A stretch of DNA of 39,185 nucleotides, from IMG/VR virus record IMGVR_UViG_3300046533_000691, positions 1-39,185 of that record. One strand, given 5' to 3'. The position numbers and the translations under genes are program-made. Under the pieces are notes generated by a model. The model was not told the origin of the DNA, made no database searches, and was given only the letters and a program-made list of their open reading frames with translations. Shown piece by piece: positions 3,178-36,647 of this stretch. Within the stretch, counting starts at the first letter, position 1. Every line of letters starts with the position of its first letter. This stretch comes from a virus.

Positions 3178-3685
3178 CGATCTGTCTCCAGAGTAATTCG
3201 AAGTTTCGGTTGTAGATTTTCGTGCCGTCGCGACCGTAAAGCGCGACGGAAAAACTGAGGCTGTTCGCAGGACGGTCGGTAGTAACCGTGACATCGGCAC
3301 GAACCGCCGCACCCTGCTTGATCAGAGGCTGCAGGGCTTCACGGACATAGGCCTCCACAACAGTCTCAATGCCGTCGTAAATGGCCGAACGACGCAATAG
3401 CCAGAGCCTTGAACCGAGTTCGTCTTCTCCGTCCATGCGGTCGAAGCTGTCGCCGATCCAGCCCTTATTCTCGTCGCCGTCGCGCAGCTCGCTGGGGTCA
3501 ACCCGACGATCAGTCATCAGGCAGATGAGGACTTGGGTCGCAAGGCCTTGCTCTGCCCTCAGATCGCCAGGCGCCTCTGGATGCGCGAGGCTGTTGACAA
3601 TCAAATCGCCAACAACACCGTCCCATCCGAGGTCCGGTGCGCGATATGGATCTTCGCCGTCATCGAGTGGGATGATTTTCAGCAT
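3149..3685 (-). CDS. Baseplate protein, Mu gp46-like
   Basis: A 178-residue protein of the Mu gp46 family, equivalent to the gpW/gp25-type wedge component. Evidence is its length, its place between gp45-like and gp47-like genes, and the conserved segments LATQVLICLMTDRR, KGWIGDSF and GSRLWLLRRS. The last region (RADVTVTTDRPANSLSFSV) is the beta-strand domain that ends this family. It overlaps the next gene by 29 bases. Confidence 0.88.
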   Translation of the reverse strand: MLKIIPLDDGEDPYRAPDLGWDGVVGDLIVNSLAHPEAPGDLRAEQGLATQVLICLMTDRRVDPSELRDGDENKGWIGDSFDRMDGEDELGSRLWLLRRSAIYDGIETVVEAYVREALQPLIKQGAAVRADVTVTTDRPANSLSFSVALYGRDGTKIYNRNFELLWRQIDGVVNPLSG

Positions 3686-3712
3686 GGGTTCGCCCAGTTG
3701 GTGTTTCGCGGA

Positions 3713-4165
3713 CTATGCCCCGCCATCGCCGTCACCATCGGTGATCGATCCGGACGCATTGATATTTCCGTTAACCTGCATATTGCCGTTGAAGACAGTC
3801 GGACCGTTGATCGTCCACCCGCCCCCGGCAGTCAGCGTAGCCGTGCGGCCTTGGACGTCGATGACCATGCCCGTCATGATCAACTTGATGATGCCGCCGT
3901 TGTGATCGTAGATCGCCGTTGCTCCGGACGGGATATTCGGGCGGTGTCCCGGATGTTCGCCGCCAAGGACATAGGCCTGGTCCGCATCGCCATTTGGGGC
4001 GAAGAGCAGGCCATTAGCGCCTTTGATCGGATACGATGCGAAACCTGCCGGCTCCAAACGATGAATGCGGCTATAGCCACTGTTGAACAAGCCGCGACCA
4101 TTGACAAACTGCTGTCCGCCCTTGTGCGTGACCTTCCCGTCGAGTTCGATGCGTTCGCCGCTCAT
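3713..4165 (-). CDS. Tail spike / baseplate hub protein, Mu gp45-like (gpV)
   Basis: A 150-residue protein fitting the Mu gp45 / P2 gpV membrane-piercing spike. It has an N-terminal OB-like region and a C-terminal triple-helix-forming repeat of short beta segments (TINGPTVFNGNMQVNGNINA). It is shorter than Mu gp45 (about 197 residues), mainly at the N-terminus. It lies directly after the gpP-like gene with an ATGA overlap. A metal-binding HxH tip was not seen; the protein ends in GDGDGGA. Confidence 0.78.
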   Translation of the reverse strand: MSGERIELDGKVTHKGGQQFVNGRGLFNSGYSRIHRLEPAGFASYPIKGANGLLFAPNGDADQAYVLGGEHPGHRPNIPSGATAIYDHNGGIIKLIMTGMVIDVQGRTATLTAGGGWTINGPTVFNGNMQVNGNINASGSITDGDGDGGA

Positions 4166-27942: not shown

Positions 27943-27989
27943 CCGTTATATGGCGTATTTCGCGATGCGGCATATGGCGAGATCCGCTA
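27916..27989. promoter_or_regulatory. Right operator cluster: three 15-bp sites
   Basis: Three imperfect palindromes share the consensus TGGCGA-N3-TCGCCA: TAGCGCAAATCGCCA (27916-27930), TGGCGTATTTCGCGA (27951-27965) and TGGCGAGATCCGCTA (27975-27989). Centres are 35 and 24 bp apart. The consensus comes from a perfect copy at 28724. The third site sits next to the repressor start codon and would control the repressor gene. Confidence 0.72.
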
Positions 27990-28000
27990 ATATGGGTAAC

Positions 28001-28630
28001 ATGATGAGATTAAAAGAAATTCGGAAATCTCGCGGGTTGAAGCAGGTAGAAGTCGCTGCCGCGCTTGGTATTGATTTGACTAACTATAACAAGCTTGAAA
28101 ACGGCCACACGGAACTCACTCTGAGTCGGATGCAGGACCTTTCCGAGATCCTGCACTGCGCACCCGCCGATTTTATTAGCGACAGAACAGGCTTTCGGTT
28201 CGTCGAGGTGCGCCAGTTCGTCCAGGCCGGAAACTGGGCCGAGTCTCTTCTATGGGATCAAGAGGACTGGTACGAAGTCGCGATACCCGATCACGCCAGC
28301 TATCGAAATCTTACGCTTCACGCGGCAAAAACCCGTGGTCCCTCAATGAATAAGCGCTATCCAGAAGGATCCGCGCTGATCTACACCAGTATTATTGAGA
28401 CGCGAGAGAAAGTCGAAGCCGGTAGGCGCTACATCATCGAGATTGAGCGTTCTGACGGAATGCGAGAGGCAACCGTGAAGACATTGTGGCAGGATGAGAC
28501 CGGTAAAAGCTGGCTCCTGCCCGAATCAACTGACCCTCGCCATCAGCAGCCGATAGACCCTGCCGCCAATGACGAAGAGACGGTTCGTATCGTCGGGCGC
28601 ATCATCTATTCGATCCAGCCAGAAGAATAA
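28001..28630 (+). CDS. CI-type prophage repressor with LexA (S24) self-cleavage domain
   Basis: A 209-residue repressor. Residues 3-50 are a Cro/CI HTH (LKEIRKSRGLKQVEVAAALG, NYNKLENGHTELTLSRMQDL). VRQFVQAGNWAE holds the Ala76-Gly77 cleavage bond, GPSMN the catalytic Ser115, and ATVKTLW the Lys160 of the S24 dyad, at LexA-like spacing. The prophage should thus be inducible by DNA damage through RecA. ATG codons at 27992, 28001 and 28004 are possible starts; TAATAT at 27988 would place the transcript start at about 28000. It ends before a strong terminator. Confidence 0.92.
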   Translation: MMRLKEIRKSRGLKQVEVAAALGIDLTNYNKLENGHTELTLSRMQDLSEILHCAPADFISDRTGFRFVEVRQFVQAGNWAESLLWDQEDWYEVAIPDHASYRNLTLHAAKTRGPSMNKRYPEGSALIYTSIIETREKVEAGRRYIIEIERSDGMREATVKTLWQDETGKSWLLPESTDPRHQQPIDPAANDEETVRIVGRIIYSIQPEE

Positions 28631-28653: not shown

Positions 28654-28678
28654 AAGCCGCCTTTCTGGCGGCTTTTTT
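28654..28678 (+). terminator. Intrinsic terminator after the repressor gene
   Basis: AAGCCGCC (28654-28661), loop TTTCT, GGCGGCTT (28667-28674), followed directly by Ts. A perfect eight-base stem 23 bases after the repressor stop, separating repressor transcription from PL. Confidence 0.9.
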
Positions 28679-28723: not shown

Positions 28724-28775
28724 TGGCGATTATCGCCAAGTTTTGCTTGACATTATATAGCGTCTTTCGTCATAT
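28724..28775 (+). promoter_or_regulatory. Left promoter PL with two operators
   Basis: TTGACA (28747-28752), 17 bases, TCATAT (28770-28775): a good sigma-70 type promoter pointing into the left operon, with transcription expected near 28782. One operator is the perfect palindrome TGGCGA-TTA-TCGCCA (28724-28738), nine bases before the -35. A second, TAGCGTCTTTCGTCA (28758-28772), lies between -35 and -10. The same motif controls PR, so one repressor governs both. Confidence 0.8.
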
Positions 28776-28781
28776 TTCGCT

Positions 28782-28887
28782 TGTCCGGTGATCTCCTCCT
28801 CCCGTCGCCGGATATCGCGAACCGCCGCTGCTTCATCTCCTCCAAGCAGCGGCGGAGCGGCGCGGGAGGCTTCCGCAGGAGAAAGAC
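28782..28887 (+). ncRNA. Structured leader RNA with two anti-Shine-Dalgarno hairpin loops
   Basis: Hairpin 1 (28784-28812): stem TCCGGTGAT with GTCGCCGGA, nine pairs counting two G-U, loop CTCCTCCTCCC. Hairpin 2 (28822-28855): perfect 12-bp stem (CCGCCGCTGCTT / AAGCAGCGGCGG), loop CATCTCCTCC. Both loops are complementary to Shine-Dalgarno sequences. The expected PL start is within about two bases of hairpin 1. The loop segment TCTCCT exactly complements AGGAGA, the ribosome site of the first gene (ATG 28888). Alphaproteobacteria have sRNAs with paired CCUCCUCCC-loop hairpins ('cuckoo' or alpha-r14 type); resemblance is by pattern only. No U-rich terminator follows, so it could be a leader, a processed sRNA, or both. 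Confidence 0.6.
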
Positions 28888-29100
28888 ATGCAAACCGCAA
28901 CCCAGTCCGTCGCCCCGTTCCCGTCTGCGATCGGTCGCGATATCGCCCTCGAAATGGCCCACGCCCTGCTCGATCTCGGCGAAGGCGCCACGCGCGATGA
29001 CCTGAAGAAGCACAAGCGCTTCACCGATTCGCAGATCGACCGTCATGGCGAAGACGCTCGCGTCATCGCTGACAAGCTTTTCACGCGTCGCATTCGATAG
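28888..29100 (+). CDS. Small hypothetical protein, first gene of left operon
   Basis: A 70-residue protein (QSVAPFPSAIGRDIALEMAH, ATRDDLKKHKRFTDSQIDRH) with two helical regions and a basic end. The ribosome site AGGAGA is 6 bases before ATG and is complementary to the loops of the leader hairpins, which could control its translation. I recognise no family. A strong site and position behind PL make it a real gene. Confidence 0.7.
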   Translation: MQTATQSVAPFPSAIGRDIALEMAHALLDLGEGATRDDLKKHKRFTDSQIDRHGEDARVIADKLFTRRIR

Positions 29101-29637: not shown

Positions 29638-29809
29638 CGCACAAGAGATCGAACGCCTTTACCGCGCCGTCGCCGATGGCGAGCCCCAGCGCGAGATCCT
29701 GCAGCTGATCTACGATCTGTTCGGCGAACACTTCGACCTTCGCCCACCAGTCGCTGAACTGCGTCTGGCTTCCCTCTGTGGGACAGGGGGGGGTGTCAAG
29801 CGTGGCTGA
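29624..29809 (+). CDS. Small hypothetical protein upstream of clamp gene
   Basis: A 61-residue acidic helical protein (MDVTDAQEIERLYRAVADGE, LQLIYDLFGEHFDLRPPVAE). GGAGG lies 8 bases before the ATG at 29624, which is inside the preceding gene by 14 bases. A run of eight Gs (29786-29793) lies near its 3' end, just before the clamp start. Function unknown. Confidence 0.62.
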   Translation: MDVTDAQEIERLYRAVADGEPQREILQLIYDLFGEHFDLRPPVAELRLASLCGTGGGVKRG

Positions 29810-30929
29810 AGCTCCATTCTTCCGCGTCCATCGTGGCGCTCTCTTGGCAGCACTCGACGCTGTCATCGAGGCAGTCGACGCGAAGGCAACAATCCCGATC
29901 CTCGGCAATGTTTTGCTGCGTCCCGCCGGCGACATCCTCCGCATCAGCGGCACGAACCTCAATATCGAGATCGATACCTCCTGCGAGCTGCTGGATGAAG
30001 GCCAGGGTACGGCCTTGACCTTGTCCGGGACAGATCTTCGCGATATCGCCCGAAAGCTCCCGGAAACAGCAGAGCTGGTGTTTTCCGCCGGCGCATTTCC
30101 GGGCCAGGTCGTCGTTAAGGCCGGCCGCAGTCGCTTCGCATTACTCTCTCTTCCGGAAAGCGATTTCCCATCGATTGCCGAGAAGGCGACGGGCGAAAGT
30201 TTCGAGATCGATTCCAGCGTCCTTATGGGTGCGTTCAACAAAGTCCTTTATGCCGTCCGCGAGGATGAGCCGCGATACTATCTAGCGGGCGTCTGTCTTC
30301 ACCCGTTTGCCGATGGCGACAAGATTTCCGTCACTGGCACCGATGGCCACAACCTTGCTGTTGTTCGCATAGCGGTCGATACCAAGGTTTCGTTCTCGCC
30401 GATCATCGTGCCGCTAAAGACGATCAAGGCTCTAAAAAAGCTGACTGCCGATGGAAAGACGCGCGCGCGCCTCACGATCTCGGCTGCGATGATGAAGATC
30501 GAATGCGCGGGAACCACCCTGATCTCCAAGTTGATTGACGGGACCTATCCCGACTACATGCGAGCGGTCCCCGGAAAGAGCGACAAGGAAGCCTTGGTCG
30601 TCGTCGACGCGCTCCGCTCCGCTCTGGGTCGCGTCTGCCTCGTTTCTGATGACCTGTCCGAAGACACCGTACAGATGCGCATCGGAGCCGGCGGAATCAA
30701 TCTGCTCCTGTCAACGAGGCAGGGCGAGGAAGGCTCCGAGGAGCTTGGTGCGGAGTACGACGGCGACGCCGTCGAGATCGGCTTCAACGGCAAGTACTTC
30801 ATCAACATGCTCGGTAGCATCGCGACGCAGGATGTTCGGATGTTCTTTTCGGACGCCGGAACTGCTGGCCTCTTCAAGCCGACGATCGATAGCGACGAAC
30901 TTTACGTCCTAATGCCGAAGAGGTTCTGA
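29802..30929 (+). CDS. dnaN: DNA polymerase III beta subunit (sliding clamp), phage copy
   Basis: A 375-residue, full-length beta clamp, near the bacterial size (about 370). The three-domain pattern is clear: first domain HRGALLAALDAVIEAVDAKA and TIPILGNVLLR; second around FPSIAEKA and GVCLHPFADGDKISVTGTDG; third through KLIDGTYPDYMRAVPG to the C-terminal YVLMPKRF, which matches the family end (MPM/MPKR). The start is GTG at 29802 (VAEAPFF), overlapping the previous stop by 8 bases (GTGGCTGA). It would hold a polymerase on phage DNA or divert the host replisome, and it is expressed from PL rather than with the replication gene. Confidence 0.93.
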   Translation: MAEAPFFRVHRGALLAALDAVIEAVDAKATIPILGNVLLRPAGDILRISGTNLNIEIDTSCELLDEGQGTALTLSGTDLRDIARKLPETAELVFSAGAFPGQVVVKAGRSRFALLSLPESDFPSIAEKATGESFEIDSSVLMGAFNKVLYAVREDEPRYYLAGVCLHPFADGDKISVTGTDGHNLAVVRIAVDTKVSFSPIIVPLKTIKALKKLTADGKTRARLTISAAMMKIECAGTTLISKLIDGTYPDYMRAVPGKSDKEALVVVDALRSALGRVCLVSDDLSEDTVQMRIGAGGINLLLSTRQGEEGSEELGAEYDGDAVEIGFNGKYFINMLGSIATQDVRMFFSDAGTAGLFKPTIDSDELYVLMPKRF

Positions 30930-34412: not shown

Positions 34413-35632
34413 TGAGCAAAATGTATCCAAAACTACCGAAGGGCGTATCGCTCGATCGCGAATTCCGCACCAAGGAAGCGCGGTTTTATTTCCGCGCGCC
34501 TGGTCGACCCAAGGTCAGACTGCATGAGGAGCCTGGCACCGACGAGTTTGACAAAGAGGTCGCCTGCGCCCGCCTGAATATCCCTTACGTCAAACCATGT
34601 GACGTACCGAAGATAGATCCGCTCAACCGCAAGGCCGCTGAAGGTTCGTTCCAATGGCTGGTGCAGCAATACAAAAAGCGCGCCGTTGGCACGATGGCGC
34701 TCGACCAACTGGCTAGGCGCGTTCGGTTGATGGAAGAGATCTGCGAGAGCAAGACACCGAAGAGCAAGACAAGACGCGGCGACATTCCATTCAAGCTGCT
34801 CGAAAAGAAACACGTCATCGAGATCCGTGACGAGTTGCGCCAGACGGCCGGTGCCCGGAATAATCTCGTGAAATATCTATCGGCCATGTTCGGGTGGGCG
34901 ATGGAGAGCGACCTTGCCGACCGCAATCCCGCTCTACGCATCAAGAAAATGGACAGTGGCGACGGCTTCCACGCGTGGACGATTGCCGAGGTTGAACAGT
35001 TCGAAGCCAGGCACCCGCCAGGCACAAAGGCGAACTTGTATATGAGCATGGCGCTGTATACTGGATTGCGCCTGCAGGAGTTGGCGATCATGGGCCGCCA
35101 GCATGTCCGGGACGGATGGCTCACAATCCGGCCCGGTAAGACGAAGAAGTCGAGCGGGGTGGTTGTTCAGATTCCGGTCCTGTCGGCACTGCAACAGCGC
35201 CTGGACAGCCAGCCATTAAAGCAGATGACCTACATGGTCACAGAATATGGCAAGCCGTTCAGTGTGAACGGTCTTGGCAACAAGATGCGGGATTGGTGCG
35301 ACGAGGCGGAGCTGTTCCATTGTTCGTCGCACGGCTTGCGCAAGGCAGGCGCCACGATGGCGGCTGAGAACGGTGCGACCGACGATGAGCTGATGGCCAT
35401 CTTCGGATGGACGACGAAGCAGCAGACGACGCTCTATACCAAGTCAGCGAACCGCAAGAAGCTTGCCGGCGGCGCGATGCATAAGCTGTCGCGGGAACAA
35501 ACGAGCACAGATTTTGTCCCACACCCCGAGGGGGTTGAAAAAAGTGGGACAAAATCTGTTGAAAAGATCAACGAAAACAACGTTGAAAAAATGGAATGGT
35601 GCCCAGAAGAGGTGTCAAGCAAGCGTGAATAA
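34412..35632 (+). CDS. int: Tyrosine integrase
   Basis: A 406-residue tyrosine recombinase. An SAM-like core-binding region lies around residues 85-165 (QWLVQQYKKRAVGTMALDQL, NNLVKYLSAMFGWAMESDLA). The catalytic part has TGLRLQEL (Arg), KTKKSSGVVVQIP (Lys), HGLRKAGAT (His-x-x-Arg), FGWTTKQQTT (Trp) and TLYTKSA (Tyr nucleophile). The remaining 50 residues (PEGVEKSGTKSVEKINENNV, then WCPEEVSSKRE) come from DNA that is also attP: the core matches a tRNA-Leu end. After integration the last residues would be different. Confidence 0.93.
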   Translation: MSKMYPKLPKGVSLDREFRTKEARFYFRAPGRPKVRLHEEPGTDEFDKEVACARLNIPYVKPCDVPKIDPLNRKAAEGSFQWLVQQYKKRAVGTMALDQLARRVRLMEEICESKTPKSKTRRGDIPFKLLEKKHVIEIRDELRQTAGARNNLVKYLSAMFGWAMESDLADRNPALRIKKMDSGDGFHAWTIAEVEQFEARHPPGTKANLYMSMALYTGLRLQELAIMGRQHVRDGWLTIRPGKTKKSSGVVVQIPVLSALQQRLDSQPLKQMTYMVTEYGKPFSVNGLGNKMRDWCDEAELFHCSSHGLRKAGATMAAENGATDDELMAIFGWTTKQQTTLYTKSANRKKLAGGAMHKLSREQTSTDFVPHPEGVEKSGTKSVEKINENNVEKMEWCPEEVSSKRE

Positions 35633-35706
35633 TCAATAGCTTGGCCGGGTGTGGGACAAAAACCGCTTACACAGGATCATTATGTTTTTCGGTCAGCCTG
35701 TCCCAC
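35507..35706. other. Attachment site attP: tRNA-Leu core between inverted arm repeats
   Basis: Core: TGGTGCCCAGAAGAGG at 35597-35612; its complement CCTCTTCTGGGCACCA reads as the last part of a rhizobial tRNA-Leu including the CCA. Right of it the match ends, so no tRNA body follows. Arm 1: a perfect 16-bp inverted repeat, ACAGATTTTGTCCCAC (35507) and GTGGGACAAAATCTGT (35544). Arm 2: GTGGGACAAAAA at 35651 and TGTCCCAC at 35699. The four GTGGGACA copies flank the core as integrase arm sites do. Confidence 0.68.
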
Positions 35707-35768
35707 AATTTCCAGCTCTCAGCACCGAATGACGCCGGGAAGATGTATTGAGTATCTTGGGGAAGACT

Positions 35769-36647
35769 ATGAACGATCACACATTCCAGCCGTGGGGCGG
35801 CGCGGCGCCCGTCGTCATCGATGGCGGCAGGCTCAGTCGCACTTTTCAAGAAGCTGCCGAGAGCTATGTCCGCCAAGGCGGCTCGTCGCGATACCTCGAT
35901 AAGGCCGTTGAGTATTTCAGGGGCAGGGCCGTCCAATCGATCGCTCCAGCCGAGATCAAGCAGATGGCCCTCGACCTTTACCCTCACCACATGGCGTCAA
36001 CCCGCAACCGGCAAGGCATCACGCCAGCCAGGGCGGTGATCTACCATGCGCACGAGCTCGGATGGTGTCATCACATGCGCGTCCGCAGCTTTCGCACTCC
36101 TCGGTCGACGAAGCACTCTCCGGTCGACGGTGCGTGGCTATCGGCTTTCATCAACCAGGCTGACCGCGATCATCTTTTTCACCTGTCGGCACTGGCCATC
36201 TTCATGAACCATACCGCAGCCAGAGTTTCCGAGGCTATCAACCTTCTTGGCGAGCACATCGATTTTCGTCATCGCACCGCGCTGCTGGTCAAGACAAAGA
36301 CCGATGTCATGGCAACCGCCTATCTCACTGACGAGCTGATGTATCGGCTGTACAATTTGGGTGTGAAAGAGGGCGAGCGGGTCTTTCGCTATAAGTGTCG
36401 ATGGGCGGTCAATGAGAGGATCGAGGCCGTCTGCAAAAGAGCCGGCATCAAGTACCGATCGTCACACTCGGTTGGGCGATATTCGTTCGCGACGAACGCG
36501 ATGAACCTAGGGATCGGCGTCAAGACGGCGATGGACGCCGGTCGTTGGAAGTCGTCAAAGATTTTCTTGGAAACCTACGTTCATACCGAGAACGCCGGCC
36601 GCATGGTCGCAGACCGCTTCAACACACAGCGCTACGCAAACCTGTAG
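35769..36647 (+). CDS. Second tyrosine recombinase
   Basis: A 292-residue tyrosine recombinase of a group often found in rhizobial elements. The active-site set is visible: HTAARVSEAINL (Arg), LLVKTKTDVMATA (Lys), SHSVGRYSFATNA (His, Arg), DAGRWKSS (Trp/His position) and LETYVHTENAG (Tyr). The N-terminal domain is short (about 110 residues). It follows attP but is separated from int by 136 bases and has its own GGGGA ribosome site at ATG 35769. It may resolve dimers, assist excision, or belong to a separate element. Confidence 0.85.
   Translation: MNDHTFQPWGGAAPVVIDGGRLSRTFQEAAESYVRQGGSSRYLDKAVEYFRGRAVQSIAPAEIKQMALDLYPHHMASTRNRQGITPARAVIYHAHELGWCHHMRVRSFRTPRSTKHSPVDGAWLSAFINQADRDHLFHLSALAIFMNHTAARVSEAINLLGEHIDFRHRTALLVKTKTDVMATAYLTDELMYRLYNLGVKEGERVFRYKCRWAVNERIEAVCKRAGIKYRSSHSVGRYSFATNAMNLGIGVKTAMDAGRWKSSKIFLETYVHTENAGRMVADRFNTQRYANL

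Follow-up and report, generated by a model that had tools for sequence, protein, structure and literature searches.

The put RNA of phage HK022 consists of two hairpins near the 5′ end of an early transcript and acts on RNA polymerase; we know of no anti-Shine–Dalgarno (anti-SD) loops in it. In the Rhizobiales, the ar14/NfeR1 RNA has three hairpins, and its CCUCCUCCC loops act redundantly in silencing mRNAs at their ribosome sites (PMC10746234; PMC7143759), and the same motif appears in PMC3927594. The CcsR1–4 ('cuckoo') RNAs of Rhodobacter and relatives also carry hairpins with CCUCCUCCC loops; they follow a DUF1127 gene and, in the described case, derive from an mRNA. A further system, the metastable, SD-sequestering leader of the aapA3 toxin mRNA of Helicobacter pylori, forms competing anti-SD hairpins in turn, which gate the ribosome site of a small gene (PMC6733600). 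No description of such an element in phages was found in the part of the literature that was covered.

The locus described here lies in the window, the whole stretch of viral DNA that was analysed (39,185 nucleotides, IMG/VR record IMGVR_UViG_3300046533_000691), and its genes and RNA features are on the + strand. Upstream of the leader is a gene for a CI/LexA-like repressor (27950–28630; Pfam HTH_3, E 1.6e-13, and Peptidase_S24, E 1.9e-7), which has its own intrinsic terminator (28654–28674; an 8-bp stem, then TTTT, in the terminator scan). An operator-like palindrome, TGGCGATTATCGCCA (28724–28738, without strand; an inverted repeat in the scan), adjoins a predicted early promoter (28747–28776) comprising a −35 box TTGACA (28747–28752), an 18-nt spacer and a −10 box CATATT (28771–28776), with 10 of 12 matches. 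The promoter position predicts a +1 at about 28782.

Hairpin 1 (hp1; 28782–28814, 11 bp) starts at this predicted +1 and presents the loop CUCCUCCUCCC (28793–28803); hairpin 2 (hp2; 28822–28855, 12 bp) presents the loop CAUCUCCUCC (28834–28843). The linker UCGCGAA between them (28815–28821) is predicted, from folds of the window and its relatives, to pair weakly with bases just 3′ of hp2; across the leaders, this third small helix lies either around hp2 or as a mini-hairpin within the linker. Two purine-rich motifs follow. The first, an extra SD-like GGGAGG (28864–28869), is exactly complementary to CCUCCC of the hp1 loop, and the second, the ribosome site AGGAGA of the first gene (28877–28882), complements UCUCCU in the hp2 loop and is paired in the lowest-energy fold. 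The first gene of the early operon (28888–29100, ATG at 28888) encodes 70 amino acids and belongs to phrog_22869, a family without known function; of the 395 genomes covered from a single bacterial family, 60 contain a member (E ≤ 0.001). The 70-residue protein has no Pfam match, and the predicted model, of three helices (pLDDT 76), has no significant fold match (best E 8). Farther along the window, the gene for the phage sliding clamp (29778–30929) has a G run (GGGGGGGG) at 29785–29795, close to its start, which could affect that start, or slip in phase.

Both hairpins are unusually stable, hp1 folding at −15.1 kcal/mol (z −4.3) and hp2 at −23.5 kcal/mol (z −5.4), with 0 of 200 shuffles equally stable in either case. 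A first-pass annotation, made from the letters of the window, had reported two stable hairpins with CU-rich loops from the predicted early start and a downstream ribosome site complementary to them; its sequences and coordinates were right. CTCCTCC occurs six times in the window against 5.75 expected, so the loop strings by themselves are not rare. What goes beyond chance is that the loops sit in stable hairpins at the predicted +1 and are conserved in 27 other phage leaders, whose stems show compensatory changes.

These relatives were collected by several routes. Searches with the window leader (blastn) and the first protein (tblastn) gave no match in annotated phages, nor did blastn with a second leader, L066, in phages and plasmids. 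It was through the first protein that a viral contig, L010, came to light; it has the same two hairpins with a different repressor and operator. A covariance model of these two leaders (R1), run over 397 genomes of one order, recovered anti-SD arrays of the hosts and a single leader in a prophage (L044), and a search for the first-gene family in the 395 genomes of one bacterial family recovered leaders with hairpins (L066, L072, L079) and leaders without. The second covariance model, R2, yielded 15 phage leaders in 14 genomes out of 148 of one genus, and leaders in 5 of the 395 genomes. A pattern of hp1 matched 1 of the 397 genomes, the match being the prophage itself, and 14 viral contigs, 12 of them with leaders. 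The linker pattern TCCGGATAYCGCGAAC and the string CTCCTCCTCCCGTCGCCGG were discarded as search keys, with 15 of 16 and 2 of 2 viral matches, respectively, in unrelated sequence. The resulting set comprises 28 non-identical leaders, the window and 27 others from prophages and viral contigs, and includes close kin (for example, L099/L100 and L065/L098/L159).

In an alignment of 20 leaders, 93% of cells are paired and two-sided changes are seen at 14 of 22 pairs (hp1, 6 of 10; hp2, 8 of 12). None of 500 shuffles was as good, and the covariation score is 0.402, whereas slid partners do not exceed 0.098. Fitting to the covariance model biases the alignment towards structure, and both helices still give such changes. 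CUCC or CCUC is present in the hp1 loops of all 28 leaders and in all 28 hp2 loops, where UUCCUCC of L010, whose hp2 stem has one mismatch, was read by hand. The full 9-mer CCUCCUCCC occupies 21 of the 28 hp1 loops, including that of the window. A −35 TTGAC lies 34–36 nt upstream of hp1 in 15 of the 20 leaders, and by eye the other five have TTG-type boxes at roughly the same position; from the 34–36-nt spacing, hp1 is predicted to start at about +1. The comparison with related phages that the first-pass annotation had called for thus gives conserved loops and covarying stems, not stems that vary at random around changing loops.

That a conserved leader RNA exists is nearly certain. Comparison of the leaders shows it to be a structured element at the predicted 5′ end of a CI-controlled early transcript, in temperate phages whose hosts are probably of Rhizobiaceae type, as judged from L030 (a Rhizobiales bacterium), from ar14 in the same genomes and from the published range of ar14. 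The proposal of an mRNA leader of anti-SD hairpins, in the style of cuckoo and ar14, at the head of this transcript is supported.

Membership of the cuckoo/alpha-r14 group itself, which had also been proposed, did not survive the covariance-model search. With the Rfam ar14 model (RF02344), whose gathering threshold is 58.8, the window leader falls short: it scores 33.5 bits (E 2e-4, 801 bases searched), and 18 other phage leaders reach at best 38.4 bits (those listed, 34.6–38.4; the rest below the reporting limit), whereas host controls of the same genus score 114 bits. The CcsR1 model (RF02791; threshold 65.3) gives 22.4 bits in the window and at most 32.3 in other phage leaders, and none of the 4227 Rfam families covers the phage leader above threshold. 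The phage leaders share with ar14/NfeR1 GC-rich hairpins with variable stems, anti-SD CCUCCUCCC loops in which the motif is unpaired (as in hp1 of the window), a sigma70-type promoter and alphaproteobacterial hosts. Host RNAs, however, have three hairpins, the last usually a terminator, and the phage leaders have two, in 28 of 28 cases, with GGAG motifs and a gene start behind. A U-tract follows hp2 in 0 of 28 leaders, and thus no terminator, against 23 of 30 host arrays, which does not fit a free-standing, terminator-ended transcript of the ar14 type. The CcsR1 context is likewise absent, the gene ahead in the window being the HTH/S24 repressor with its own terminator rather than a DUF1127 gene of the same operon; unlike the CcsRs, the phage leaders begin at the predicted +1 before another gene. 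The aapA3 leader offers a parallel in its gating of a small gene; it differs in belonging to a toxin–antitoxin mRNA, in lacking twin GC-rich hairpins with CCUCCUCCC loops, and in organism and gene. Compared by description, HK022 put is alike in its two 5′-proximal hairpins and unlike in acting on RNA polymerase and in having, as far as is known, no anti-SD loops. By these sequence comparisons, the phage leader resembles the host sRNAs and is a distinct phage element. Among the host loci, L129, L132, L143 and L147 go beyond the usual ar14 plan: they are long chromosomal tandem arrays of CCUCCUCCC hairpins, with more than three consecutive units.

The leader behaves as a cassette, in that it is retained with different repressors, operators and first genes. 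The repressors encoded upstream, with HTH and/or S24 domains, belong to several unrelated types (two of the proteins were classified with hand-edited N-termini, and one was left aside), the operators differ between phages, and so do the first genes. Three phages, L010, L095 and L123, have a convergent gene of about 345 nt between the leader and the first gene. In L010 it occupies 3581–3925 (− strand) and encodes about 114 residues with a signal-peptide-like start (MKRLL...) and no Pfam match; it lies at the same place in the other two. The three proteins are 43–69% identical to each other, indicating an old insertion, and the gene shows coding-type substitution, the third codon position being the most variable. 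A reading frame on the leader strand through this gene was rejected, as it has no coding signature. Hairpins, loops and purine motifs are all retained in the three phages despite the insertion, and start-like NTG codons lie at ribosome-site distance directly 3′ of the leaders on the leader strand.

Two separated GGAG or GAGG motifs are present between hp2 and the start codon in 22 of the 28 twin-hairpin leaders (three motifs in L010), compared with 1 of 25 hairpin-less leaders of the same gene family (Fisher 2.3e-8, a value that ignores the shared ancestry of leaders). The sole control with two motifs, L082, also has CUCCUCC near its 5′ end. This difference speaks for pairing of the loops with the motifs, among them the ribosome site, inside one RNA molecule. 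For either loop, the best duplex with the downstream sequence is stronger than the median with shuffled downstream sequence (p below 0.5) in 27 of 28 leaders; combined over the 28 leaders, which share ancestry, the Fisher values are 9e-11 and 5e-12. In the window, the lowest-energy, closed fold (−55.7 kcal/mol) pairs the loop and 3′ arm of hp1 with GGGAGG and AGGAG; an open fold with hp1 and hp2 both formed and the ribosome site free lies 1.7 kcal/mol higher, at −54.0 kcal/mol.

On this basis, an intramolecular brake on translation of the first gene, with the loops pairing to the GGAG motifs, is about an even prospect. Each hairpin presents a CU-rich anti-SD loop, and normally two GGAG-type motifs follow, the second of which serves the first early gene as ribosome site; loops and motifs would pair within the same RNA. 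The leader would then switch between the open form, with hp1, hp2 and a free ribosome site, and the closed form, in which the loop and 3′ arm of hp1 cover both GGGAGG and that site. Whether the first gene is translated would then depend on folding kinetics, on competition by the 30S subunit or on a trans factor, and its expression would be delayed just after derepression and restrained in stray transcripts. Pairing of the loops with other mRNAs could add an effect in trans.

As a general rule, a lowest-energy fold that simply covers the ribosome site was rejected. Accessibility of the site in the window is 0.02, against 0.35 in shuffles (rank 0.01); over 17 leaders it is not significantly low (Fisher p 0.09), and L103, L105, L106 and L140 look open. 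Repression of the phage's own first gene, as suggested in the first-pass annotation, is plausible from the paired GGAG motifs, but a plain lid lacks significance over the leaders taken together. In related phages with short leaders, a 5′ hairpin hiding the ribosome site gave good-looking folds, but the accessibility p was 0.13 and the candidate was dropped; in L002, L003, L006 and L030, part of the left arm of the hairpin lies upstream of the predicted +1. Also counting against the intramolecular brake, the loops carry longer CCUCCUCC(C) runs than one ribosome site requires, and the three phages with the convergent gene keep the element at a distance from the first gene.

The accessibility over 17 leaders and the persistence of the element in those three phages leave room for action in trans or on the whole transcript. 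As a trans-acting phage sRNA, the leader would be cut or terminated early, and its anti-SD loops would block ribosome sites of host or phage mRNAs at induction, as NfeR1 (ar14) does. The 9-mer of the 21 hp1 loops is the motif that NfeR1 uses redundantly in silencing mRNAs (PMC10746234), host CcsR RNAs are excised from an mRNA by RNase E (PMC10253847), and the hairpins persist across different repressors and first genes and ahead of a convergent gene; yet no leader has the U-tract, a sense gene with a ribosome site follows 25 of the 28, and in cis the loops would be taken up by the GGAG motifs behind them, and we regard this reading as unlikely, if well worth weighing. The two modes might also be combined: the loops of a self-gated leader would be held by the two GGAG motifs until ribosomes engage the motifs or cleavage removes them, after which the RNA would, at induction, regulate host mRNAs in trans in the manner of a cuckoo RNA, in a cassette swapped among phages with different repressors. 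Such a dual role seems to us rather improbable.

Antitermination, acting on RNA polymerase, or protection of the 5′ end from decay would serve the whole operon, and would fit both the location of the hairpins, where the early transcript is predicted to start, and the retention of the structure when the first gene differs or a convergent gene intervenes; since it leaves the conserved CUCC of all loops and the paired GGAG motifs unexplained, it is decidedly doubtful. That the hairpins are due to chance, or are a DNA operator with no function as RNA, is in effect refuted, the doubling of the stems as DNA palindromes and the commonness of CTCCTCC in the window being outweighed by compensatory changes in both stems, loops conserved in 28 leaders and a leader kept while operators differ.

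Anti-SD hairpin RNAs, described in the papers covered as bacterial sRNAs, are hereby extended to a conserved class of leaders that open phage early transcripts, and the proposed brake on the first gene suggests control at the level of translation in the lysis–lysogeny switch of Rhizobium-type phages. Host and phage would use the same loops matching ribosome sites, so it can be tested directly whether the host's anti-SD RNA network is copied by phages or meets competition from them.

Three leaders of the first-gene family (L081, L082 and L090) have a single hairpin or another arrangement and retain a CCUCC-type stretch; they are possible intermediates of the twin-hairpin form. A further variant is found in an isolated phage, Agrobacterium phage Rivra (PV764937.1; L124), between the repressor (35195–35926) and RIVRA_51 (34450–34632). 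This leader folds into one large hairpin with a CCCCUAUCCCCCUCGCC loop, and a 5′-proximal CCAUCCG complements CGGAUGG at the ribosome site, making phage Rivra a possible laboratory model.
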